A DNA stretch of 64,000 nt from Chloroflexota bacterium (GTDB taxonomy: Bacteria; Chloroflexota; Anaerolineae; Anaerolineales; Villigracilaceae). The notes beneath the pieces are model-generated. The model was not told the origin of the DNA. It did no database searches and saw only the letters and a program-made list of their open reading frames with translations. Below are positions 8,018 through 60,431 of this stretch, one piece after another (within the stretch, counting starts at the first letter, position 1; every line of letters starts with the position of its first letter). The stretch spans positions 1 to 64,000 of the forward strand of contig JAIOAU010000011.1 in the NCBI GenBank assembly GCA_019873655.1, given 5' to 3'. The position numbers and the translations under genes are program-made.

Positions 8018-10024
8018 TCAACTAACGAGGAAGACCACCACCTCCCCCGGCCCGTGGACGCCGATGGTGAGGGTCATTTCGATGTCGGCGGTGCGGCTGG
8101 GGCCGGTGACGATGACCCCGGCCGCGGCGGCGCGCACTTCCGGCCGCGCCAGCGCCTCGGCGAGGGTTCCCACAATCTGACCGGCGCGCAGGATGACGGC
8201 GTGAACCGGCGGCAGGAGCGAGGCGGTCAGGGCGTTGGCGCTCTGGCTGGTCAGGACGAGCGAGCCGGTCTCGGCGATGGCGCACAGCGCGCCGGTCACG
8301 CCGACCGACAGGGACGGGTCGGGATGAAGGACGGCGGCCTGACCCAGATAGGGGGCGGCCAGGTCGTCGCTCAAGGCCTGGGAGACGCCCTTTTCAGCCA
8401 AAAAGGTCTGCAAGCGGGCGGGCAGGTCGGCGGCAGAGATGCGCTCCACCGTCCCGCCCAGGGCGGTCAGTTCTGTGGAAAACAAGGGTATCAGGGATTC
8501 GGCACTTGGGGATTGGGGAAGCGCTGTTCCCCCACCTTCCTTCCTGATTACCTGATTCCCTGTTTCCCTATTACCTATTTCCCTATTCCCTGTTTCCTTA
8601 TCACCCTTTTCCTCGATTTCCTGTTTAATGGTCTCCCACCGCGCCCGAAACGGCCTGACTGCCAGGCGCGGGAAATCCTTGCTGTAGCCCCAGCCAGTCC
8701 AGGCGGGCAGGCGCAGGTACGGGCGGCGCGGGGACAGAAGGCGGCTGAAGATGCCGCCCAGAGTCTGGAAAACGGCGAACAGGCGCGGGGTCGAGGCGGC
8801 GAGGCGGAAGCCGCGCAGGCCCACTTTGACGGGGGCGGGCAGGCCACGCCCTTCCGCTCCTTCATCCGGCGTCTGACCGGCGCGGAGACGCAGCAACAAC
8901 CCCGGCAGGTCAATGTCCACCGGACAGGCTTCGCGGCACGCGCCGCACAGGGAGGAGGCCTGCGCCAGGTAATCGAACGACGGATTGACCAGCGCGGCCG
9001 AGATGACCGAGCCAATCGGGCCGGGGTAGATGCTCCCGTAGGCGTGGCCGCCCGCCTCGCGGAAGACCGGACAGGCGTTCAGGCATGCTCCGCAGCGGAT
9101 GCAGGAGAGGCTTTCGGCCAGCGGCGAGGCGCGCAGGGCCGAGCGGCCGTTGTCGAGCAGAATCAGGTGGCGGGTCTGGCCGGGGAGCGGGGCGTTGATG
9201 AGGCTGGTATAGACGCTCAGTTTTTGTCCGGTGGCCGAGCGCGGCAGGAGCGAGAGGAAGAGCGCCAGGTCGTCCAGCGTGGGGACGAGGCGCTCGATGC
9301 CCATCAGGGCGATGTGAAGGCGCGGCAGGGTGGTGACCATGCGCCCGTTGCCCTCGTTGGTGACGAGGACGAGCGTGCCGCTTTCGACGACGCCGAAGTT
9401 GACGCCGGAGACGCCCACATCGGCGGTCAGGAAGATTTCGCGCAGGAGGCGGCGGGCGGCGTTGGTCAGGGTGGGGATGTCTTCGGTGTAGGGCAGGCCG
9501 AGTTTTTCTTCGAAGAGGCGGCCCACGTCGCCGCGGCGCAGGTGGACGGCGGGGGTGATGATGTGGCTGGGACGCTCGCCGCGCAGTTGGACGATGTACT
9601 CGCCCAGGTCGGTCTCGACGACGCGGCAGCCGCGCGCTTCGAGGGCATGGTTGAGTTCGATTTCCTCGCTGACCATGCTCTTGGATTTGGCGATGGTGAG
9701 GGGACTTGTAGAGGAGCGCGGATTTTGCTTTTCCACGATGTCGAGGAAGATTTGCAGCGCCTCTTCCGCATCGGCGGCGCGGTGGACGCGGATGCCGTTG
9801 GCCTCGACGCGCTCGATGAAGCGCGCCAGGTAATCGTCCAGGCGGGCGATGACCTCGGCCTTGGCGGCGTGGGCGCGGGCGCGGCGTTCCTGGAGATCGG
9901 GCAGGGATTCGAAGGCGGCCGTCCGCCCGGCCTTGCGGCGCGCCGCGTTGGCGTCCAGGGCGGCTTGCAGGTTCTCATCGGCGATGGCGTCGCGGATGCG
10001 TTGACGGAACAGTTTTGTGGTCAT
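8018..10024 (-). CDS. LutB-LutC fusion, iron-sulfur lactate oxidation protein
   Basis: In most bacteria L-lactate oxidation uses LutA, LutB and LutC as separate proteins. Here residues 1 to about 465 are LutB-like: an N-terminal LUD domain followed by two ferredoxin-type clusters, CIRCGACLNACPVFRE (near 306-320) and CGACREACPV (near 354-363). Residues about 515-668 are a second LUD domain of LutC type (GALCAIAETGSLVLTS; PPVHAVILRAGQIVGTL). The junction is a hydrophilic linker rich in GNRETGN-like repeats encoded by a short tandem repeat. The gene starts three bases after the lutA stop, so the two form an operon. The fusion is seen directly; lactate as substrate is inferred from the family. 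Confidence 0.88.
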   Translation of the reverse strand: MTTKLFRQRIRDAIADENLQAALDANAARRKAGRTAAFESLPDLQERRARAHAAKAEVIARLDDYLARFIERVEANGIRVHRAADAEEALQIFLDIVEKQNPRSSTSPLTIAKSKSMVSEEIELNHALEARGCRVVETDLGEYIVQLRGERPSHIITPAVHLRRGDVGRLFEEKLGLPYTEDIPTLTNAARRLLREIFLTADVGVSGVNFGVVESGTLVLVTNEGNGRMVTTLPRLHIALMGIERLVPTLDDLALFLSLLPRSATGQKLSVYTSLINAPLPGQTRHLILLDNGRSALRASPLAESLSCIRCGACLNACPVFREAGGHAYGSIYPGPIGSVISAALVNPSFDYLAQASSLCGACREACPVDIDLPGLLLRLRAGQTPDEGAEGRGLPAPVKVGLRGFRLAASTPRLFAVFQTLGGIFSRLLSPRRPYLRLPAWTGWGYSKDFPRLAVRPFRARWETIKQEIEEKGDKETGNREIGNRETGNQVIRKEGGGTALPQSPSAESLIPLFSTELTALGGTVERISAADLPARLQTFLAEKGVSQALSDDLAAPYLGQAAVLHPDPSLSVGVTGALCAIAETGSLVLTSQSANALTASLLPPVHAVILRAGQIVGTLAEALARPEVRAAAAGVIVTGPSRTADIEMTLTIGVHGPGEVVVFLVS
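8543..8612. repeat. degenerate 7-mer tandem repeat encoding the LutB-LutC linker
   Basis: On the coding strand the tract reads as variants of GGGAATA, GGTAATA and GGAAACA at roughly seven-base steps. It is translated in frame into a Gly/Asn/Glu/Thr-rich linker at about residues 471-494 of the fusion protein. Similar 7-mer tracts occur inside hyuA and hyuB. Confidence 0.75.
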
Positions 10025-43138: not shown

Positions 43139-43948
43139 GTGCTGAAAACCCGCGTCCTGGCCGCCATCGTCCTGGCTGTGGTCGGTGTCCCGGCCGTGAT
43201 TCTCGGGGGCATCCCCTATTTCCTTTTGATCACCGTCTTTTTGAGTCTGGCCGCCTGGGAGTACGTGCAGTTGTTCCAGGCGGCTGGCTTTCGCGCCAGT
43301 CCGTGGCTGGTCGTTGGGGGGACGGCTGCCTTGCTCGTCCTGCGCGGCTATTTTCCAGAATACGCCGGGGTTGGCCTGGCCATCTTGGTGCTGGCGGCGA
43401 TGGGATGGCATCTGGTGGCCTATGAAGACGGCCGCGACCAGGCGGCGACCGACTTTGCCGTCACGTTGGGCGGCTTTTTGTATCTCGGCTGGATCGGCGC
43501 TTATTTGGTCGAACTGCGCGCTTTGCCGAACGGCATGTGGTGGTTCTGGTTGATTCTGCCGTCAGTATGGGTTGCCGATTCGGCGGCTTATTTCATCGGC
43601 AAGAGATTCGGCAAGCATCCGCTCAGTCGGCGCCTGAGCCCCAAGAAAACCTGGGAAGGGTATTGGGGCGGCGTGATTTTTGGAACCTTGGGCGGGGCCG
43701 GCCTGGCCCTCCTCGGTCAGCAGGCGGGCGGTTTGGGAGTCCCGTGGTGGAAAGGGGCGGCGGTGGGCCTGATGCTGGCCATTCTCACCACCCTGGGCGA
43801 CCTGGGCGAAAGCATGATCAAACGGCAGGCGGGCGTCAAAGATTCCAGCAACCTCATCCCCGGCCACGGCGGCTTCTTCGACCGTTTCGACACCTGGCTC
43901 TGGGGCGGGGCAATCGGCTATTTCCTGATCACCTGGTTCTTGTTGTAA
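43139..43948 (+). CDS. cdsA: phosphatidate cytidylyltransferase
   Basis: CdsA makes CDP-diacylglycerol, the precursor of phospholipids. The 269-residue protein is polytopic (about seven helices). It ends with the family signature region: WVADSAAYFIGKRFGKHPLSRRLSPKKTWEGYWGG, followed by DLGESMIKRQAGVKDSSNLIPGHGGFFDRFD. The start is GTG 43139, three bases after the uppS stop. Confidence 0.95.
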   Translation: MLKTRVLAAIVLAVVGVPAVILGGIPYFLLITVFLSLAAWEYVQLFQAAGFRASPWLVVGGTAALLVLRGYFPEYAGVGLAILVLAAMGWHLVAYEDGRDQAATDFAVTLGGFLYLGWIGAYLVELRALPNGMWWFWLILPSVWVADSAAYFIGKRFGKHPLSRRLSPKKTWEGYWGGVIFGTLGGAGLALLGQQAGGLGVPWWKGAAVGLMLAILTTLGDLGESMIKRQAGVKDSSNLIPGHGGFFDRFDTWLWGGAIGYFLITWFLL

Positions 43949-43966
43949 ATCCATCGGGAGGCAGAG

Positions 43967-44950
43967 ATGAATTCTGAACCTACACGCAACCTGGCGCTCG
44001 AACTGGTGCGCGTGACGGAGGCGGCGGCGCTGGCAGCCGGCCGTTTGATGGGCCGGGGAGATAAGGTCGCCGCCGACCGCGCCGCGGTCGAGGCGATGCG
44101 GGTCGTTCTCAACTCTATTCAGATGAATGCGATCATCGTCATCGGGGAAGGGGAAAAGGATCAGGCCCCAATGTTGTTCAACGGCGAGCGGGTGGGAACC
44201 GGACAGGGGGTCGAGATGGACATCGCCGTGGATCCGATCGACGGCACCCGTCCGCTGGCCAACGGCACCTCGAATGCCATCGCCACGGTGGCGTTGGCGC
44301 CGCGCGGGACGATGTTCAATCCCGGTCCCTTCTTGTATATGCACAAGATAGCCGTCGGTCCCGAAGCGCGCGGTTGCATCCATATCGAGGCCTCCGTCGA
44401 GGAGAATTTGCGCGCCGTAGCCAAGGCCAAGGGCAAGGCCATCGAAGATTTGACGCTGGTGATTCTCGACCGGCCGCGGCACGCCGAATTGATTGCCGAG
44501 GTGCGGCGGCTGGGGGCGCGCATTCGCCTGCTGGCCGATGGTGACGTTGCCGGCGCGTTGATGACCTGCTGGCCCGACTCGGGCATCGACATCCTGTATG
44601 GCATTGGCGGCACACCGGAAGGGGTGATCGCCGCCTGCGCTCTGCGGGCGATGGGCGGCGAAATCCAGGGCAAACTGTACGCCCGCAGCGAGGACGAGGT
44701 GCGCCGCGGCCGCGAGATGGGTTATGACTTCGAAAAAATCTTGACCATGGACGATTTGGTCGCCTCGGACGATGTCTTCTTCGCCGCGACCGGCATCACC
44801 AACGGTGAGTTCCTGCAGGGCGTCAAGTATTTCGGCAACGGCGCCCGCACCGACAGTCTGGTGGTGCGCGGCCTGACCGGCACGGTGCGCCAGATCATCG
44901 CTACCCATCGGCTAGAAAAACTCAGCCGTTTCAGCGCCATCAAGTATTGA
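43967..44950 (+). CDS. glpX: class II fructose-1,6-bisphosphatase
   Basis: GlpX-type phosphatases remove the 1-phosphate in gluconeogenesis. The 327-residue protein has the metal-binding motifs GEGEKDQAPML and VDPIDGTRPLANG, then GVIAACALRAMGGEIQGKL. An AGGCAG site precedes ATG 43967. It follows cdsA by 18 bases, so it may be the last gene of the operon. The -35 box of the tRNA-Asn promoter overlaps its stop codon. Confidence 0.94.
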   Translation: MNSEPTRNLALELVRVTEAAALAAGRLMGRGDKVAADRAAVEAMRVVLNSIQMNAIIVIGEGEKDQAPMLFNGERVGTGQGVEMDIAVDPIDGTRPLANGTSNAIATVALAPRGTMFNPGPFLYMHKIAVGPEARGCIHIEASVEENLRAVAKAKGKAIEDLTLVILDRPRHAELIAEVRRLGARIRLLADGDVAGALMTCWPDSGIDILYGIGGTPEGVIAACALRAMGGEIQGKLYARSEDEVRRGREMGYDFEKILTMDDLVASDDVFFAATGITNGEFLQGVKYFGNGARTDSLVVRGLTGTVRQIIATHRLEKLSRFSAIKY

Positions 44951-44975
44951 CAGCCGTCTGGCTTCCCTATATAAT
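44947..44975 (+). promoter_or_regulatory. consensus sigma-70 promoter of tRNA-Asn
   Basis: TTGACA (44947-44952) and TATAAT (44970-44975) are separated by exactly 17 bases. Both hexamers match the consensus. The -35 overlaps the glpX TGA. Transcription would start about 44982, a few bases before the tRNA. Confidence 0.9.
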
Positions 44976-44986
44976 CTCGCCTGCTT

Positions 44987-45059
44987 TCCTCGCTAGCTCA
45001 ATCGGCAGAGCGGGCGGCTGTTAACCGCTAGGTTGGAGGTTCGAGTCCTCCGCGAGGAG
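44987..45059 (+). tRNA. tRNA-Asn (anticodon GTT)
   Basis: The cloverleaf folds fully: acceptor stem TCCTCGC/GCGAGGA, D stem GCTC/GAGC, anticodon stem GGCGG/CCGCT with loop CTGTTAA, T stem GGAGG/CCTCC with loop TTCGAGT, and discriminator G at 45059. The CCA end is not encoded (CCT follows). It has its own consensus promoter and an intrinsic terminator 5 bases downstream. Its 3' portion is the seed of the adjacent tandem array. Confidence 0.95.
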
Positions 45060-45351
45060 CCTGGCTCTCCTGCGCGGAGGGCTTTTTTTGTCTGGTTGGA
45101 GGCCCCCGGAAGGGGATGTTATTCGAGTCCTCCGCGAGGAGCCTGGCTCTCCTGCGCGGAGGGCTTTTTTTGTCTGGTTGGAGGCCCCCGGAAGGGGATG
45201 TTATTCGAGTCCTCCGCGAGGAGCCTGGCTCTCCTGCGCGGAGGGCTTTTTTTGTCTGGTTGGAGGCCCCCGGAAGGGGATGTTATTCGAGTCCTCCGCG
45301 AGGAGCCTGGCTCTCCTGCGCGGAGGGCTTTTTTTGTCTGGTTGGAGGCCC
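45040..45351 (+). repeat. 82-bp tandem array built from the tRNA-Asn 3' end plus terminator (3.8 copies)
   Basis: Units begin at 45040, 45122, 45204 and 45286; the last is cut at 45351. Each starts with the same 22 bases as the tRNA 3' end (T-loop through acceptor strand). The unit continues with the terminator hairpin GCTCTCC/GGAGGGC and T7, then GGTTGGAGG (5' side of the T stem) and a 19-base insert containing CCCC-CGGAA-GGGG. The insert is absent from the tRNA itself. The copies are essentially identical. Because 82 is not a multiple of three and no stop occurs, the array is open in all three forward frames. I do not annotate a protein here. Confidence 0.92.
45064..45089 (+). terminator. 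tRNA-Asn terminator, first of four identical copies
   Basis: GCTCTCC (45064-45070) pairs with GGAGGGC (45076-45082) around TGCGC, followed by seven Ts. Identical copies recur at 45146-45171, 45228-45253 and 45310-45335. Confidence 0.88.
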
Positions 45352-45537
45352 GCAAAGAGGTTTCTAATGTTAGAAGGCCTCTAATGTCTGAAACTGGAAG
45401 GCAATATGATTTGTCTATTTCGGTTTGCTCCTGTATAATGTTGTAAGAAGAGGTGTTCTCCTTTCGAGAGTGCATGGGGGACTTGCCTGTTTGTTCGTTT
45501 CAATGGCGTCGTTCCTGTTTGCTTCAGGAGGTTCCTC
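45352..45537. other. spacer between the tRNA array and the C39-like gene
   Basis: It holds an imperfect hairpin GAGGTTTCTAA/TTAGAAGGCCTC near 45357-45382 and a promoter with TTGTCT (45411-45416) and TATAAT (45434-45439) spaced by 17. An approximately 90-base leader ends in the CAGGAGG ribosome site. No gene is supported. Confidence 0.6.
45411..45439 (+). promoter_or_regulatory. promoter for the C39-like/SH3 gene
   Basis: TTGTCT and TATAAT are separated by 17 bases. The predicted start is near 45446. Confidence 0.6.
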
Positions 45538-46914
45538 ATGTTCAGGACCCAGCACCTTTACCAGAATGATCCGCAGTGGAAAGACGTTCCCCTCGGTTTT
45601 GCTACCGAGACGATCGGCAACTGGGGCTGTTTGTTGACCTCGGTCACGATGATGCTCAATGGCTTGGGCTACAATGAGACTCCCGTAACCGTCAACGAGA
45701 AGATGAAGGCTGCCGGCGGTTTCCAGGGAGCCTTTTTCATCCCCTCGGCTTTGCCGTATGTCTTCCCGAATGTGATCTACAAGGGAATGCAGCCGTGCGA
45801 AACTACCCCAGCCCCCATCGCGCTCATCGACGCCAATCTGGCGGCTGGCAAGCCGGTCATCGTCCAGGTGGATTGGAATCCCCAGGTGGGCATCCAAACC
45901 CACTTCGTGCTGCTTAAGGACAAGAAGGACGATGACTACGTCCTCTACGATCCGTACATGTATCGCGGCGACAGCCCCGACAAAGAAGTCCTGCTCACTC
46001 AACGCTACAAATATCAAGGCCCCGACCTGGCCAGCGCCATCACGGGCGTCCTTTGGTGGGATGGAACTGTCCCGCCCGCGCCGCCCGAGAAGACCCATTT
46101 ACCGCTGCCGGCCGAACGCTTCGTCGTCTATGTGGCCGAGGACGACCTGGCGCTGCGGGCCGAACCGGCGGTGACCGGTTACTTGTGGAAGCGTCTCCTG
46201 GCCGGGACCGAACTGATCTCCCTCGAACCCAAGGCTTCTGCCCAGAGCAAGGTCGGCCAGCAGGGGAAATGGATTCAGGTGCAGGACCCGGCTGGCGACC
46301 AGGGATATGTGGCCGCCTGGTATGTTTCTCTCCAGAAGGGCGCGCCGCCCCAACCCGCCGCAGCCGCGCCGGCTCAACCTGCAACGACCCCGCCGGCAGC
46401 CCGTCCGGCTCCTTTGCCGCCGGGTGCACTGGCGCTGATTCCGACTGCAGAGGTCGCTTTTCGCACCCAGCCGGTGATTTCGCCCTCGACCCTCATCCGT
46501 CGCATCCCGCCTACCGAGCAGGTCGTAGCAGTCGAACCGCCCGATCAAGTCATCAACAAGGTCGGCGTGGATGGCCAGTGGATCAAAGTGCGCGACAATA
46601 CCCAGCGTGAAGGCTACATTGCCGGCTGGTACCTGAAATATGCCAGCGGTTCGACCGCGGCCGCAGCCGCCGCGGCCGCGCCTCCGGCGGCCTCCGGCGA
46701 TCTCAAGGTCCGCACCACGGCGGAGGGCGTCGCCTTCCGCAGCCGGCCGGTGATCAGCGACGCCACTCTCATCAAGCGCTTCCCCCTCGGCGCCGAACTG
46801 ACCGTCGCCGAACCCGGCGGGGAGAGCAAGATCGGCGTCAACGATCAGTGGCTCAAGGTCCGCGACGCTGCTGGCGCGGAGGGTTATGTTGCGGCCTGGT
46901 TCGTGACGCGTTGA
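45538..46914 (+). CDS. C39-like cysteine peptidase domain with three SH3-like repeats
   Basis: The 458-residue protein begins with a papain-like C39_2-type domain (about 1-170): QNDPQWKDVPLG, catalytic Cys in NWGCLLTSVTMML, His in GIQTHFVLL and DPYMYRGD. Three SH3-like repeats follow near 195-265, 300-370 and 390-458. Each reads as FRxxPVISxxTLIKRxPxGxEL...GxxWIKVRDxxGxEGYVAxWYV, and they are separated by Ala/Pro/Thr linkers. No signal peptide is visible, which is odd for a protein with wall-binding-type repeats. It may be cytoplasmic or exported by another route. It precedes the TIR-WD40 operon by 36 bases and could be co-transcribed. Confidence 0.8.
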   Translation: MFRTQHLYQNDPQWKDVPLGFATETIGNWGCLLTSVTMMLNGLGYNETPVTVNEKMKAAGGFQGAFFIPSALPYVFPNVIYKGMQPCETTPAPIALIDANLAAGKPVIVQVDWNPQVGIQTHFVLLKDKKDDDYVLYDPYMYRGDSPDKEVLLTQRYKYQGPDLASAITGVLWWDGTVPPAPPEKTHLPLPAERFVVYVAEDDLALRAEPAVTGYLWKRLLAGTELISLEPKASAQSKVGQQGKWIQVQDPAGDQGYVAAWYVSLQKGAPPQPAAAAPAQPATTPPAARPAPLPPGALALIPTAEVAFRTQPVISPSTLIRRIPPTEQVVAVEPPDQVINKVGVDGQWIKVRDNTQREGYIAGWYLKYASGSTAAAAAAAAPPAASGDLKVRTTAEGVAFRSRPVISDATLIKRFPLGAELTVAEPGGESKIGVNDQWLKVRDAAGAEGYVAAWFVTR

Positions 46915-58374: not shown

Positions 58375-60431
58375 CGCGCCACCTCGACAATCAAGTTTTC
58401 GTAGGCGTCCACGCTGGCCAGGTCGCCCGCCCCCAAGAGGATGGTGGTGTCGCTGCGCACGATCACGGCCGGACCCCGAATCTGGTTGCCGGGGCGGAGG
58501 CGCTCGGCGCGGTAGAGGGGGGTCTGGCGCGGCCCGTCGGCGAAGAGGACTGGCCGGTGTTCGAGCAGGGCTGGGGAGGGATCGGACGGGCCGAGGGGCT
58601 GGGCGGGGAGGGGCGGGGGGGCGGTCTGGCCGACGGCGCGCAGGCGCAGGTTGACCACTTCGACGGGGGCGTTTTCTTGCGCGTAGCCATACTGACGGGC
58701 GTGCAGGGCGTGGAAGTCGGCGTACACGTTTGGGCCGAAGGGGACGATCAGTTCGTAGGACTGGCCGCGGTAGCGCATGTCGAGGAAGGGTTCGAGGCGG
58801 ATGTCGGCCTCGGCGACGCCCTCGGCGCGCAGGTCGGCGCGGCCGCGGCGGGCGAGCGGCTCCAGGCGGGCGGCCAGTTCGGCGACGGGCGTCTCGCCGG
58901 GCAGCATGACGGTTTGCGTGTAGTCTTTGATGACGTCGGCGGCCAGCATGCCAAAGGCCGAAAGGGTGGAGGCCAGCGGCGGGACGAGCAGGCGGGGGAT
59001 GCCCAGGCCGCGCGCCAGGTCGGCGGCGTGGAGGCCGCCCGCCCCGCCAAAGGACAGGAGGGTGAAGGCGCGCGGGTCGTGGCCGCGCTCGACCGAGATG
59101 ACCCGCAGGGCGCGCTCCATGTGGGCGTTAGCGATTTGCACCACGCCCAGGGCAGCCTGTTCGGCGCTCAGGCCCAGTTCGGCCCCCAGGCGGGCGAGGG
59201 CGGCCCGGGCGCGGCCGGGGTCGAGCGGCATCGTCCCGCCGAGGAAGTGTTCGGCCTGCAGGCGGCCGAGGACCAGGTTGGCGTCGGTGACGGTCGGCAG
59301 GTCGCCGCCGCGGCCGTAGCAGGCCGGACCGGGGTCCGCGCCGGCCGATTCGGGGCCGACGCGCAGCGCCCCGCCGACGTCGACGCGGGCGATCGAGCCG
59401 CCGCCGGCGCCGATGGTGTGGATGTCGAGCAGCGGGACGCGAATCGGGCAGCCGCCGACGACGGCCTCGGTGGTGATCTGCGGCTGGCCGTCGATGAGGG
59501 AGACGTCGGTGGACGTGCCGCCCATGTCGAAGGTGATGAGTTTGACGGCGGAGGCCGCCGTCCGGGCGACGTAGGCGCAGCCGACCACGCCGCCAGCCGG
59601 CCCGGAGAGGATGCAGCGCACGCCGAAGCGGCGCGCTTCGCCGGGGCTGATGCTTCCGCCGTTGGATTGCATGACGCGCAGGGTCACGCCGGGCGGCAGG
59701 CCGGCCTCCAGGCGGCGCAGGTAGCGGTCGAGGATCGGGGAGACGTAGGCGTTGACGGCGGTGGTGCTCATGCGCTCGTATTCGCGGTACTCGGGCAGGA
59801 TTTCGCAGGAAAGGGATGCCGAGAAGCCCGCCGCCCGCAGTTTCGCGCCGATGGCCTGTTCGTGTTCGGGATGCAGGAAGGAGAACAGCAGGCAGACGGC
59901 GACGCTTTCGATCCTTTGCTGTTGGATTTCTTCGATGATGGCTTCGACCTGGCGCTCGTCGAGGGGCTGGAGGACGCGCCCGCCGGCGTCGACGCGCTCG
60001 TCCACCTCGAAGCGCCGCTCGGCGGGGATGAGCGGCGGGGGCGGGGCGGCGAGGAGGTCGTAGAGGGCCGGGCGGTTCTGGCGGCCGATTTGCAGGACGT
60101 CGCCGAAGCCGCGCGTCGTCACCAGGGCGGCCGCCGCGCCTTTGCGCTCGAGCAGGGCGTTGGTGGCCACCGTCGAGCCGTGGGTGATGGTGATGAGTGA
60201 TTGGTGATTGGTGATTGAGGATTGGTGATTGGCGATTGAGGATTGGTGATCGGCGATTGGCGATTGGCGGGGGTCGAGAATACGCTGCAGGCCGTCCAGC
60301 ACCGCCTCGGCCGGATCGTGCGGCGTGGAGAGCAATTTGAAGGTGCGCAGGGTTTGGGCGGCCGGGTCGTAGACGACGAAATCGGTGAAGGTGCCGCCGA
60401 TGTCGATGCCGATGCGAAGGGAGGTGTTCAT
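58371..60431 (-). CDS. hyuA: hydantoinase A / oxoprolinase family protein
   Basis: HyuA carries the ATPase of the acetone/ribonuclease-H-like fold (BcrAD-type). The 686-residue protein has RIGIDIGGTFTDFVVYD, the ITHGSTVATNALLERKG loop, EYREYERMSTTAVNAYVSP, ITFDMGGTSTDVSLI and GGAGGLHAADLARGLGI. Residues about 55-80 (SPIADHQSSIANHQSSITNHQ) form an unusual Ser/His/Gln repeat encoded by a short tandem repeat between the N-terminal helix and the THGSTVATN motif. It is followed by hyuB with a four-base overlap. Confidence 0.92.
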   Translation of the reverse strand: MNTSLRIGIDIGGTFTDFVVYDPAAQTLRTFKLLSTPHDPAEAVLDGLQRILDPRQSPIADHQSSIANHQSSITNHQSLITITHGSTVATNALLERKGAAAALVTTRGFGDVLQIGRQNRPALYDLLAAPPPPLIPAERRFEVDERVDAGGRVLQPLDERQVEAIIEEIQQQRIESVAVCLLFSFLHPEHEQAIGAKLRAAGFSASLSCEILPEYREYERMSTTAVNAYVSPILDRYLRRLEAGLPPGVTLRVMQSNGGSISPGEARRFGVRCILSGPAGGVVGCAYVARTAASAVKLITFDMGGTSTDVSLIDGQPQITTEAVVGGCPIRVPLLDIHTIGAGGGSIARVDVGGALRVGPESAGADPGPACYGRGGDLPTVTDANLVLGRLQAEHFLGGTMPLDPGRARAALARLGAELGLSAEQAALGVVQIANAHMERALRVISVERGHDPRAFTLLSFGGAGGLHAADLARGLGIPRLLVPPLASTLSAFGMLAADVIKDYTQTVMLPGETPVAELAARLEPLARRGRADLRAEGVAEADIRLEPFLDMRYRGQSYELIVPFGPNVYADFHALHARQYGYAQENAPVEVVNLRLRAVGQTAPPPLPAQPLGPSDPSPALLEHRPVLFADGPRQTPLYRAERLRPGNQIRGPAVIVRSDTTILLGAGDLASVDAYENLIVEVAR
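60190..60272. repeat. GATTGGTGATTG-type short tandem repeat inside hyuA
   Basis: The plus strand shows about eleven variants of GATTGGT/GATTGGC/GATTGAG at seven- to eight-base steps. It is read through in frame by hyuA as a Ser-Ile-Asn-His-Gln repeat. Confidence 0.85.

Follow-up and report, generated by a model that had tools for sequence, protein, structure and literature searches.

Behind the only tRNA gene that ARAGORN recognised in the analysed window (the whole stretch of 64,000 nt, contig JAIOAU010000011.1 of assembly GCA_019873655.1, from a Chloroflexota bacterium of the family Villigracilaceae), the 3' end of that tRNA, tRNA-Asn(gtt), is repeated several times in tandem. The locus raises the question of what such repeats are and how they come to stand behind a tRNA gene. 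We have therefore analysed the anatomy of the array, searched for arrays of the same build behind other tRNA genes and compared them with known repeats of stable-RNA genes.

Anatomy of the array behind tRNA-Asn

The array has a period of 82 bp, and Tandem Repeats Finder reported 3.8 copies with 100% matches and without indels at 45040-45351. The following features were located, all of them on the forward strand.

44947-44975 (+): promoter of tRNA-Asn, TTGACA-17-TATAAT, 12 of 12 consensus bases
44987-45061 (+): tRNA-Asn (gtt), source of the echoes (ARAGORN; Rfam RF00005, 64.7 bits)
45030-45039 (+): part copied as A', tRNA positions ~44-53, variable loop and 5' T-stem strand (from sequence)
45040-45061 (+): part copied as B', tRNA T-loop to 3' end, 22 nt (from sequence)
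45063-45083 (+): intrinsic terminator of tRNA-Asn, present in each unit (terminator scan and folding)
45093-45102 (+): echo 1, A', 9 of 10 bases as in 45030-45039
45103-45121 (+): echo 1, hairpin insert X (CCCC-loop-GGGG and ATGTTA), 19 nt (from sequence; similar inserts at 74 tRNA genes)
45122-45143 (+): echo 1, B', 22 of 22 bases as in the tRNA
45145-45165 (+): echo 1, terminator (terminator scan)
45175-45225 (+): echo 2, A' 45175-45184, X 45185-45203, B' 45204-45225 (82-bp offset, 100%)
45227-45247 (+): echo 2, terminator (terminator scan)
45257-45307 (+): echo 3, A' 45257-45266, X 45267-45285, B' 45286-45307 (82-bp offset, 100%)
45309-45329 (+): echo 3, terminator (terminator scan)
45339-45372 (+): apparent decayed stub, A' 45339-45348 and a remnant of X ending in ATGTTA (comparison by eye)

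The last 22 bases of the tRNA, TTCGAG...GGAGCC (45040-45061), recur at 45122-45143, 45204-45225 and 45286-45307. Each recurrence is preceded by the 19-base insert X, CCCCCGGAAGGGGATGTTA (45103-45121, 45185-45203 and 45267-45285), and X in turn by A', TGGTTGGAGG, which shares 9 of its 10 bases with tRNA positions 44-53. An echo thus covers tRNA positions ~44-73, with X at the boundary of T-stem and T-loop, 53|54. The original prediction had placed a 22-base tRNA end at the start of each unit and a 19-base insert between the halves of the T stem; both were confirmed, the insert directly following the last base of the 5' T-stem strand. We term such an array a "split echo", i.e. a gene-less tandem of the tRNA 3' part with its trailer and terminator, in which the T arm is interrupted by a hairpin.

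The expected series of tRNA-Asn 3' ends, each with a terminator of its own, was likewise recovered. Six terminator-like sites were found in 43900-46900 against 3.1 expected from shuffled sequences, and four of them are the identical hairpins at 45063, 45145, 45227 and 45309. In isolation, the terminator of this locus folds with -12.6 kcal/mol alone and with -29.8 kcal/mol when extended by the free 3' strand of the tRNA. The predicted extent, 3.8 copies at 45031-45351, was right in period and count, but the first of these copies is the tRNA's own 3' end and only three echoes are complete. Further on, TGGTTGGAGG occurs a fourth time (45339-45348), and the sequence behind it, CCCGCAAAGAGGTTTCTAATGTTA (45349-45372), appears by eye to be a decayed insert, so that the apparent stub runs to 45372.

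All four matches of the 82-bp unit in the 3.04-Mb assembly lie inside the array. The same unit far from any tRNA, which would have marked an ordinary minisatellite, was accordingly not found in this assembly, and we rejected that explanation, since the unit occurs only behind tRNA-Asn and the design recurs behind other tRNAs. A CRISPR-like array was rejected as well, the units being copies of the adjoining tRNA. The identity of the units agrees with the earlier proposal that the array is young or kept uniform; given identical copies in an assembly of 45 contigs, their number at this locus is uncertain. It should be added that a second promoter-like site, TTGTCT-17-TATAAT, lies at 45411-45439 of the window, directly past the array and ahead of an ORF at 45538-46914, and that further tandem repeats of the window are located at 60183-60267 and 8543-8626 (a 7-bp unit in 12.3 copies and a 15/30-bp unit).

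Split echoes behind other tRNA genes

Copies of the tRNA-Asn 3' end split by a similar hairpin were identified in two relatives, and no tRNA-Asn echoes were found in the two genomes of the same genus that were compared. Across the 152 genomes of the family, a pattern made of the insert tail and the T-loop matched at 53 places in 30 genomes, and the same pattern read backwards did not match at all. In 21 of 30 family loci examined, a recognised tRNA (Lys, Ser, Val, Met, Glu, Arg or Asn) was located 24-75 nt upstream and the echo corresponded to the 3' end of that tRNA, exact or altered. The other nine comprised four chance-like matches (L036, L039, L041, L060), four loci near a contig edge (L040, L043, L053, L061) and one with Ns in tRNA-Asn (L051). 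With the T-loop removed from the pattern, 96 of the 152 genomes matched; among 30 such loci viewed, 12 had an upstream tRNA and T-loop-like sequence after the insert, one (L078) started at the contig edge and 17 had no tRNA, most of these being chance-like. In the genome of the window, the matches of a looser insert pattern were confined to the Asn and Glu echoes.

An order-wide search returned matches in 52 of 400 genomes. One locus each was inspected in 30 of these genomes: a tRNA lay within 700 bp upstream in 22, three were near a contig edge, L108 was echo-like with no tRNA in view, and L107, L109, L110 and L112 were chance-like; the loci kept belong to families f1 and f13 and to one f8 genome. 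Furthermore, 73 stretches were matched in 84,980 named species genomes, nine of which, from scattered taxa and with no linked tRNA, resemble chance matches. The remaining 64 had a tRNA within 600 bp upstream in 52 cases, lay at a contig or locus edge in eight and were without a recognised tRNA in four. All but one of them carried the label Chloroflexi or that of an Anaerolineae taxon (63/64), the exception being a MAG labelled Pelotomaculum (L166), and the carriers include the isolates Anaerolinea thermolimosa IMO-1 and Levilinea saccharolytica KIBI-1. The search pattern fixes the insert tail, which varies, and these counts are therefore lower bounds; the searches were aimed at the Anaerolineales insert only, and nearly all loci were chosen by their match to the pattern or to a matching locus and do not form a random sample.

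The search of related genomes for tRNA 3'-end repeats, which had been suggested as a check, resulted altogether in echoes with an insert before the T-loop at 74 tRNA genes of 16 kinds and eight amino acids in the Anaerolineales (Chloroflexota), with 153 units, 74 of them first units; the kinds become 18 when the shifted-insert echoes of tRNA-His in the genome of the window and of tRNA-Gln in A. thermolimosa are added. Units were kept when the insert had 17-22 nt and A' scored at least 5, and tRNA-Ser(tga) artefacts were removed. Before filtering there were 219 insert units and 12 "plain" rows, the latter looking like neighbouring tRNA genes, the three shifted-insert echoes of the window genome's tRNA-His, or a match in the chance locus L110. 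The units seen measure about 55-195 bp and contain no genes.

Both flanks of the insert mostly follow the adjoining tRNA. Outside the T-loop, B' agreed with its own tRNA at 10.5 of 11 bases, compared to 4.2 for tRNAs of other amino acids at the same register, and it was identical over 18 bases in 48 of 74 cases. A' agreed with its own tRNA at 8.6 of 10 bases and with tRNAs of other amino acids at 6.0, each taken at the best register in the same 60 nt; among the 74, the own tRNA gave the single best fit in 45 cases, shared the best fit in 17 and was outdone in 12. At position 52, A' deviates from the tRNA in 34 of the 74 cases (G to C for the most part), at position 53 in one, and the copied T stem is therefore broken just beside the insert in many echoes. 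The kept inserts are 18-21 nt long, with 82 distinct sequences, and those of all 74 first units form a stem of 4 bp or more, whose loop varies (ATTGA, GCAG, GGAA and others). The hairpin gave no inference as to which strand (RNA or DNA) is read, C/A and G/T combinations being both frequent, and the similarity of the insert tail GGGGATG to the 5' end of tmRNA (two tmRNAs compared) was too short to be given weight.

To see the echoes against the background of all tRNA genes, two genomes were surveyed in full, using stretches around all 46 (genome of the window) and 51 (A. thermolimosa) Rfam matches; 47 distinct tRNA genes per genome were recognised with ARAGORN and 800 nt downstream of each were examined. 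Echoes followed three of 47 genes in the former (Asn, Glu ctc and His, the latter with its insert at ~49|50) and 11 of 47 in the latter. Ten of these eleven had the usual insert (Arg cct, Arg gcg, Asn, Glu ttc, Gly tcc, Lys ctt, Ser cga, Ser gct, Ser gga and Val cac); in the eleventh, Gln ctg, the insert is shifted to after TTCGAA and was missed by the hairpin classifier, hence the count of ten plus one, whereas Ser tga was excluded, as the script merely sees the echoes of its neighbour. In a control, the tail of each tRNA was sought behind the tRNAs for other amino acids, which gave a match for 28 of 2058 and 43 of 2066 pairs. With recognised neighbouring tRNA genes set aside, no insert-less echoes were found in the two genomes except for two tRNA-like copies, both in A. 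thermolimosa: a Lys copy next to Ns and an Arg copy starting near the anticodon loop.

The fate of a single locus was followed with the tRNA-Ser(gct) array as a query against 57 genomes of one genus, from which the best 30 loci were taken, favouring carriers. Among these best 30, a full echo was present in 16 by script and in two more (L336, L337) by eye; two had the insert with B' decayed or missing (L331, L332), two were stubs (L317, L333), in three the contig stopped at the expected start of the array (L325, L330, L335) and five were empty sites (L323, L326, L327, L329, L339). By eye, B' tracks the tRNA sequence of each species. Pairwise identity among the 13 carrier species was 96% for the 13-nt hairpin and 56% both for the 6-nt tail and for the trailer with terminator. 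Complete, partial and missing echoes side by side are compatible with turnover, and the conservation of the hairpin with either constraint or a recent spread.

Several further observations were made on individual loci. Three X-like hairpins, CCCCAAAGGGGATGATA/ATGTTA, stand in tandem before an ORF on the reverse strand of L093 (from ~310), one of the 17 loci of the family in which no tRNA was found, with a possible tRNA-Arg-like tail upstream by eye; the bond of the hairpin to tRNA tails is thus not strict. In L191 (A. thermolimosa) and L166, two of the four loci from named species genomes that had no recognised tRNA, echoes follow tRNA-Met-like pieces without the 5' half, which seem to start at the anticodon loop, as if an integration there had displaced the array. 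The tRNA-Val loci L038, L129, L132 and L133 carry a second hairpin ahead of the copied variable loop, preceded in the last three by anticodon-loop-like sequence, and a motif like GCGAAGCACCC...GGG recurs in L038, L129 and also L125. Assemblies were seen to break at or inside the arrays (contig ends of L325, L330, L335, L133, L142 and L054), and draft assemblies probably undercount them.

Possible origins of the repeats

The explanation that we favour is that echoes are short non-coding repeats arising at the 3' ends of stable-RNA genes via hairpin-dependent duplication, followed by tandem recombination; we give it about an even chance of being correct. Such repeats would establish themselves at these 3' ends, probably through duplication in single-stranded DNA by template switching or a hypothetical recombinase, and the hairpin would be an essential part of the repeat. 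The arrays may then expand and contract through recombination between direct repeats, and they could be tolerated because recombination of the tRNA with an intact B' would still yield a complete tRNA. Two results point in this direction: copied RNA sequence lies to either side of the insert, which argues against the insert being merely an end of some integrated element, and insert-less echoes are essentially absent from the two surveyed genomes, which suggests that the hairpin takes part in the formation or the maintenance of echoes. Counting against it, no movement, intermediate or enzyme was seen, 12 of the 74 A' copies are better matched by a tRNA of another amino acid, the insert may stand elsewhere in the T arm (tRNA-His of the window genome, tRNA-Gln of A. 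thermolimosa), and L093 shows the hairpin in tandem where no tRNA was found. Moreover, the long presence at one locus across a genus, with a hairpin conserved at 96% versus 56%, could equally mean a selected function.

Function as RNA is the alternative that survives best, and we consider it unlikely, though worth weighing. Read-through from the tRNA promoter would here be processed to putative small RNAs like E. coli rtT RNA, acting as a decoy, a sponge or a series of terminators; small RNAs, and also insulation of the tRNA transcript, had been put forward as possible roles in the original prediction. The perfect promoter before tRNA-Asn and the terminator in every unit of its array agree with it, as do the far better conservation of the hairpin than of trailer and terminator in one genus, a few inserts with the stem changed on both sides and pairing preserved (e.g. 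CACCC/GGGTG and CTCC/GGAG), the folding of the A. thermolimosa Val unit, in which B' pairs upstream and which only 7 of 200 shuffles equalled, and the annotation of RtT as an RNA in E. coli. The unit of our array, however, folds no better than shuffled sequence (155 of 200 as good); some echoes follow mere fragments of a tRNA or stand where none is visible, a terminator was not evident by eye in several units of tRNA-Met and tRNA-Gly, and presence among relatives is patchy. We prefer hairpin-dependent repeats over functional RNA.

Repeated integration at the tRNA 3' end, likewise offered in the original prediction, would make the units leftovers of integrative elements whose site of recombination is the T-loop, with B' as the attR core and the insert as the element end. 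The junction at the T-loop is in line with it, and the ssrA repeat of Dehalococcoides with its 15-bp upstream motif is comparable (PMC3146451). Yet the end of an element would not be expected to reproduce host tRNA sequence from before the crossover, as A' mostly does, and the small, gene-less units speak against it too; the insert as the end of an integrated element is weakened by the A' copy to its left. Neighbouring genes were assessed by clustering 1177 six-frame ORFs of at least 80 aa near 64 loci: among the 14 commonest families, inspected by eye, there was no recurrent mobility gene or recombinase, so that a mobility gene beside the arrays was not supported, and the commonest families stood at a fixed distance upstream of one tRNA and were housekeeping-like.

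None of 50,697 phage records matched 45062-45351, and among plasmids the tRNA part alone was matched in each of the 20 records listed out of 35. Of ten matches in viral contigs, nine were without a tRNA and chance-like; the tenth, phage-like contig L220 (IMGVR_UViG_3300005259_000061), speaks for integrative elements in that it starts with an echo array. It begins inside the array (positions 1-240), its B' resembles the 3' end of tRNA-Gly, its genes include by eye a terminase, a portal and a lysozyme-like gene, and it may be either a prophage adjoining an array or a phage-borne tRNA. Taken together, integration in the ordinary att-site sense is weakened, since the copy continues left of the insert and the units are gene-less, and we regard remnants of integrative elements as improbable.

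Plain tandem duplication via replication slippage at the tRNA gene, with the hairpin as an incidental insert, has a still lower probability. Its merits are the identical tandem units, a short junction sequence shared in empty sites (TTTTCCA beside CCAGTCGCGGG, by eye) and the resemblance, also by eye, of the tRNA-Asn terminator to that of an array-less genome of the same genus; against these stand the same kind of insert behind 16 tRNA kinds, whose consensus refutes the simplest form of slippage, and the two full surveys with no insert-less echoes bar the two tRNA-like copies. An assembly artefact, to which the identical copies and the several contigs broken at such arrays might point, is very improbable given the arrays in the cultured isolates A. 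thermolimosa IMO-1 and L. saccharolytica KIBI-1 and in a 3.44-Mb contig, the differences among A. thermolimosa units and the E. coli repeats in complete genomes.

Relation to known repeats of stable-RNA genes

REP/BIME, MITE-like and mitochondrial palindromic repeats are short hairpins of unknown mobility that are dispersed in genomes. Echo inserts resemble them in being short hairpins; unlike them, they were seen almost only behind tRNA genes, with L093 as the exception. A dispersed hairpin repeat of the REP or MITE kind was thus not supported for our array, the unit of which is confined to it.

Within the phylum, the ssrA islands of Dehalococcoides are, to our knowledge, the nearest known integration system. 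For them, a 20-bp direct repeat of ssrA, an insertion placed in the T-loop and a conserved 15-bp motif directly upstream are reported (PMC3146451). The islands (DsiB among them) share with echoes the RNA 3'-end repeats starting from the T-loop, the conserved motif directly upstream and a serial arrangement along the chromosome. The direct repeat of an RNA 3' end that starts in the T-loop was indeed present at our locus. The Dehalococcoides repeats, however, bound islands, often with a serine-recombinase module, whereas echo units are without genes: no recombinase and cargo lie between the 82-bp repeats, and no element-derived sequence was found left of the junction, where A' copies the host tRNA. 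The echo copy also continues upstream of the insert, in which it differs from the islands.

The kind of repeat represented by E. coli tyrT/rtT is already known. The rtT RNA is a small RNA processed from the read-through transcript of the tRNA, the tyrT repeats have so far been treated as a local curiosity, and we know of no explanation of rtT since the 1970s. We found no description of the split architecture, of its recurrence behind many tRNAs in Anaerolineales or of the E. coli 5S case in the literature searched, in which few subscription journals were covered. The E. coli loci compared here were drawn from four different strains.

Strain K-12 has four tyrT/tyrV repeats, one in the spacer and three after tyrV, all of them with AAGGTTCG of the tRNA T arm left of the insert and AATCC...CCA right of it; these flanks on both sides indicate that the tRNA 3' part is split inside the T-loop. 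Further RtT-like copies were located behind tRNA-Pro, tRNA-Arg and 5S rRNA. Behind tRNA-Pro, two copies stand in tandem with a terminator between them and are annotated as "RtT sRNA"; the RefSeq note there (L347, 682-983) reads "rtT sRNA, processed from tyrT transcript", yet the repeats copy and follow tRNA-Pro. The flanks of the 5S copy are copies of the 5S 3' end. This unannotated RtT-like element, seen between 5S rRNA and tRNA-Asp of E. coli 95-3192 (L345, 635-790), carries the 5S 3' end in direct as well as inverted copy and scores 31.3 with Rfam RtT, below the gathering score of 45.

The direct A' copy was significant in the Tyr spacer, Tyr 1, Pro and 5S, being equalled in 11, 4, 19 and 14 of 2000 shuffles, respectively, and the inverted copy of the RNA's 3' arm was equalled in none of 2000 shuffles in each of the four. 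The tRNA-Arg copy, which the family RF00391 misses, has B', and neither its A' (627/2000) nor its inverted copy (93/2000) was significant. The 67-nt RtT insert matched in 4291 of 5426 E. coli genomes, at a median of six places.

The same anatomy, with unrelated inserts, is thus present in two unrelated lineages, Anaerolineales and E. coli, as judged from sequence. It may be, and here we are more tentative, somewhat below an even chance, that they represent a broad class of non-coding elements at stable-RNA 3' ends in unrelated bacteria, in which a hairpin particular to the lineage travels from locus to locus, by means of an enzyme of its own or of a process linked to replication, and causes every new host RNA gene to duplicate its 3' end on both sides of it; E. 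coli rtT would be one branch of this class. With many tRNA kinds, a second phylum, tRNA-Pro and 5S rRNA, the tyrT repeats become a comparative problem with many cases, and a hairpin found almost only within copied RNA tails provides a concrete object of study. The repeats bear on how tRNA genes draw repeats and integrations, they explain one source of assembly breaks at tRNA genes, and they suggest a possible dedicated process that copies the tails of stable RNAs.

The differences between the two lineages lie in the insert and its surroundings. The E. coli inserts (Tyr, Pro and 5S) have 66-68 nt and an unrelated sequence, and they stand inside the T-loop, after TTCG or TTCGA, and not at 53|54. 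The copies are spaced by 178 bp versus 82 bp in our array, and the covariance model RF00391, which found four matches in E. coli locus L344, had none in 43900-46900 of the window up to E=5 and none in five Anaerolineales echo loci up to E=0.5, in accordance with the prediction that the units would be unrelated in sequence and much shorter. The inverted T-arm copy that E. coli adds is not general in Anaerolineales, where it reached a shuffle fraction of at most 0.01 in three of 60 first units (the 60 of 74 with enough sequence). What both share is the build: tandem copies of the tRNA 3' end directly downstream of the tRNA gene, a hairpin-rich insert within the T arm that is preceded by a copy of the 5' T-stem strand, and several stable RNAs affected (in E. 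coli Tyr, Pro and 5S), each echo copying its own RNA. The likeness to E. coli tyrT, which had been proposed for the design of the array, is therefore deeper than claimed, for the E. coli repeats are split as well and bear a strand of their own RNA on the left of the insert.
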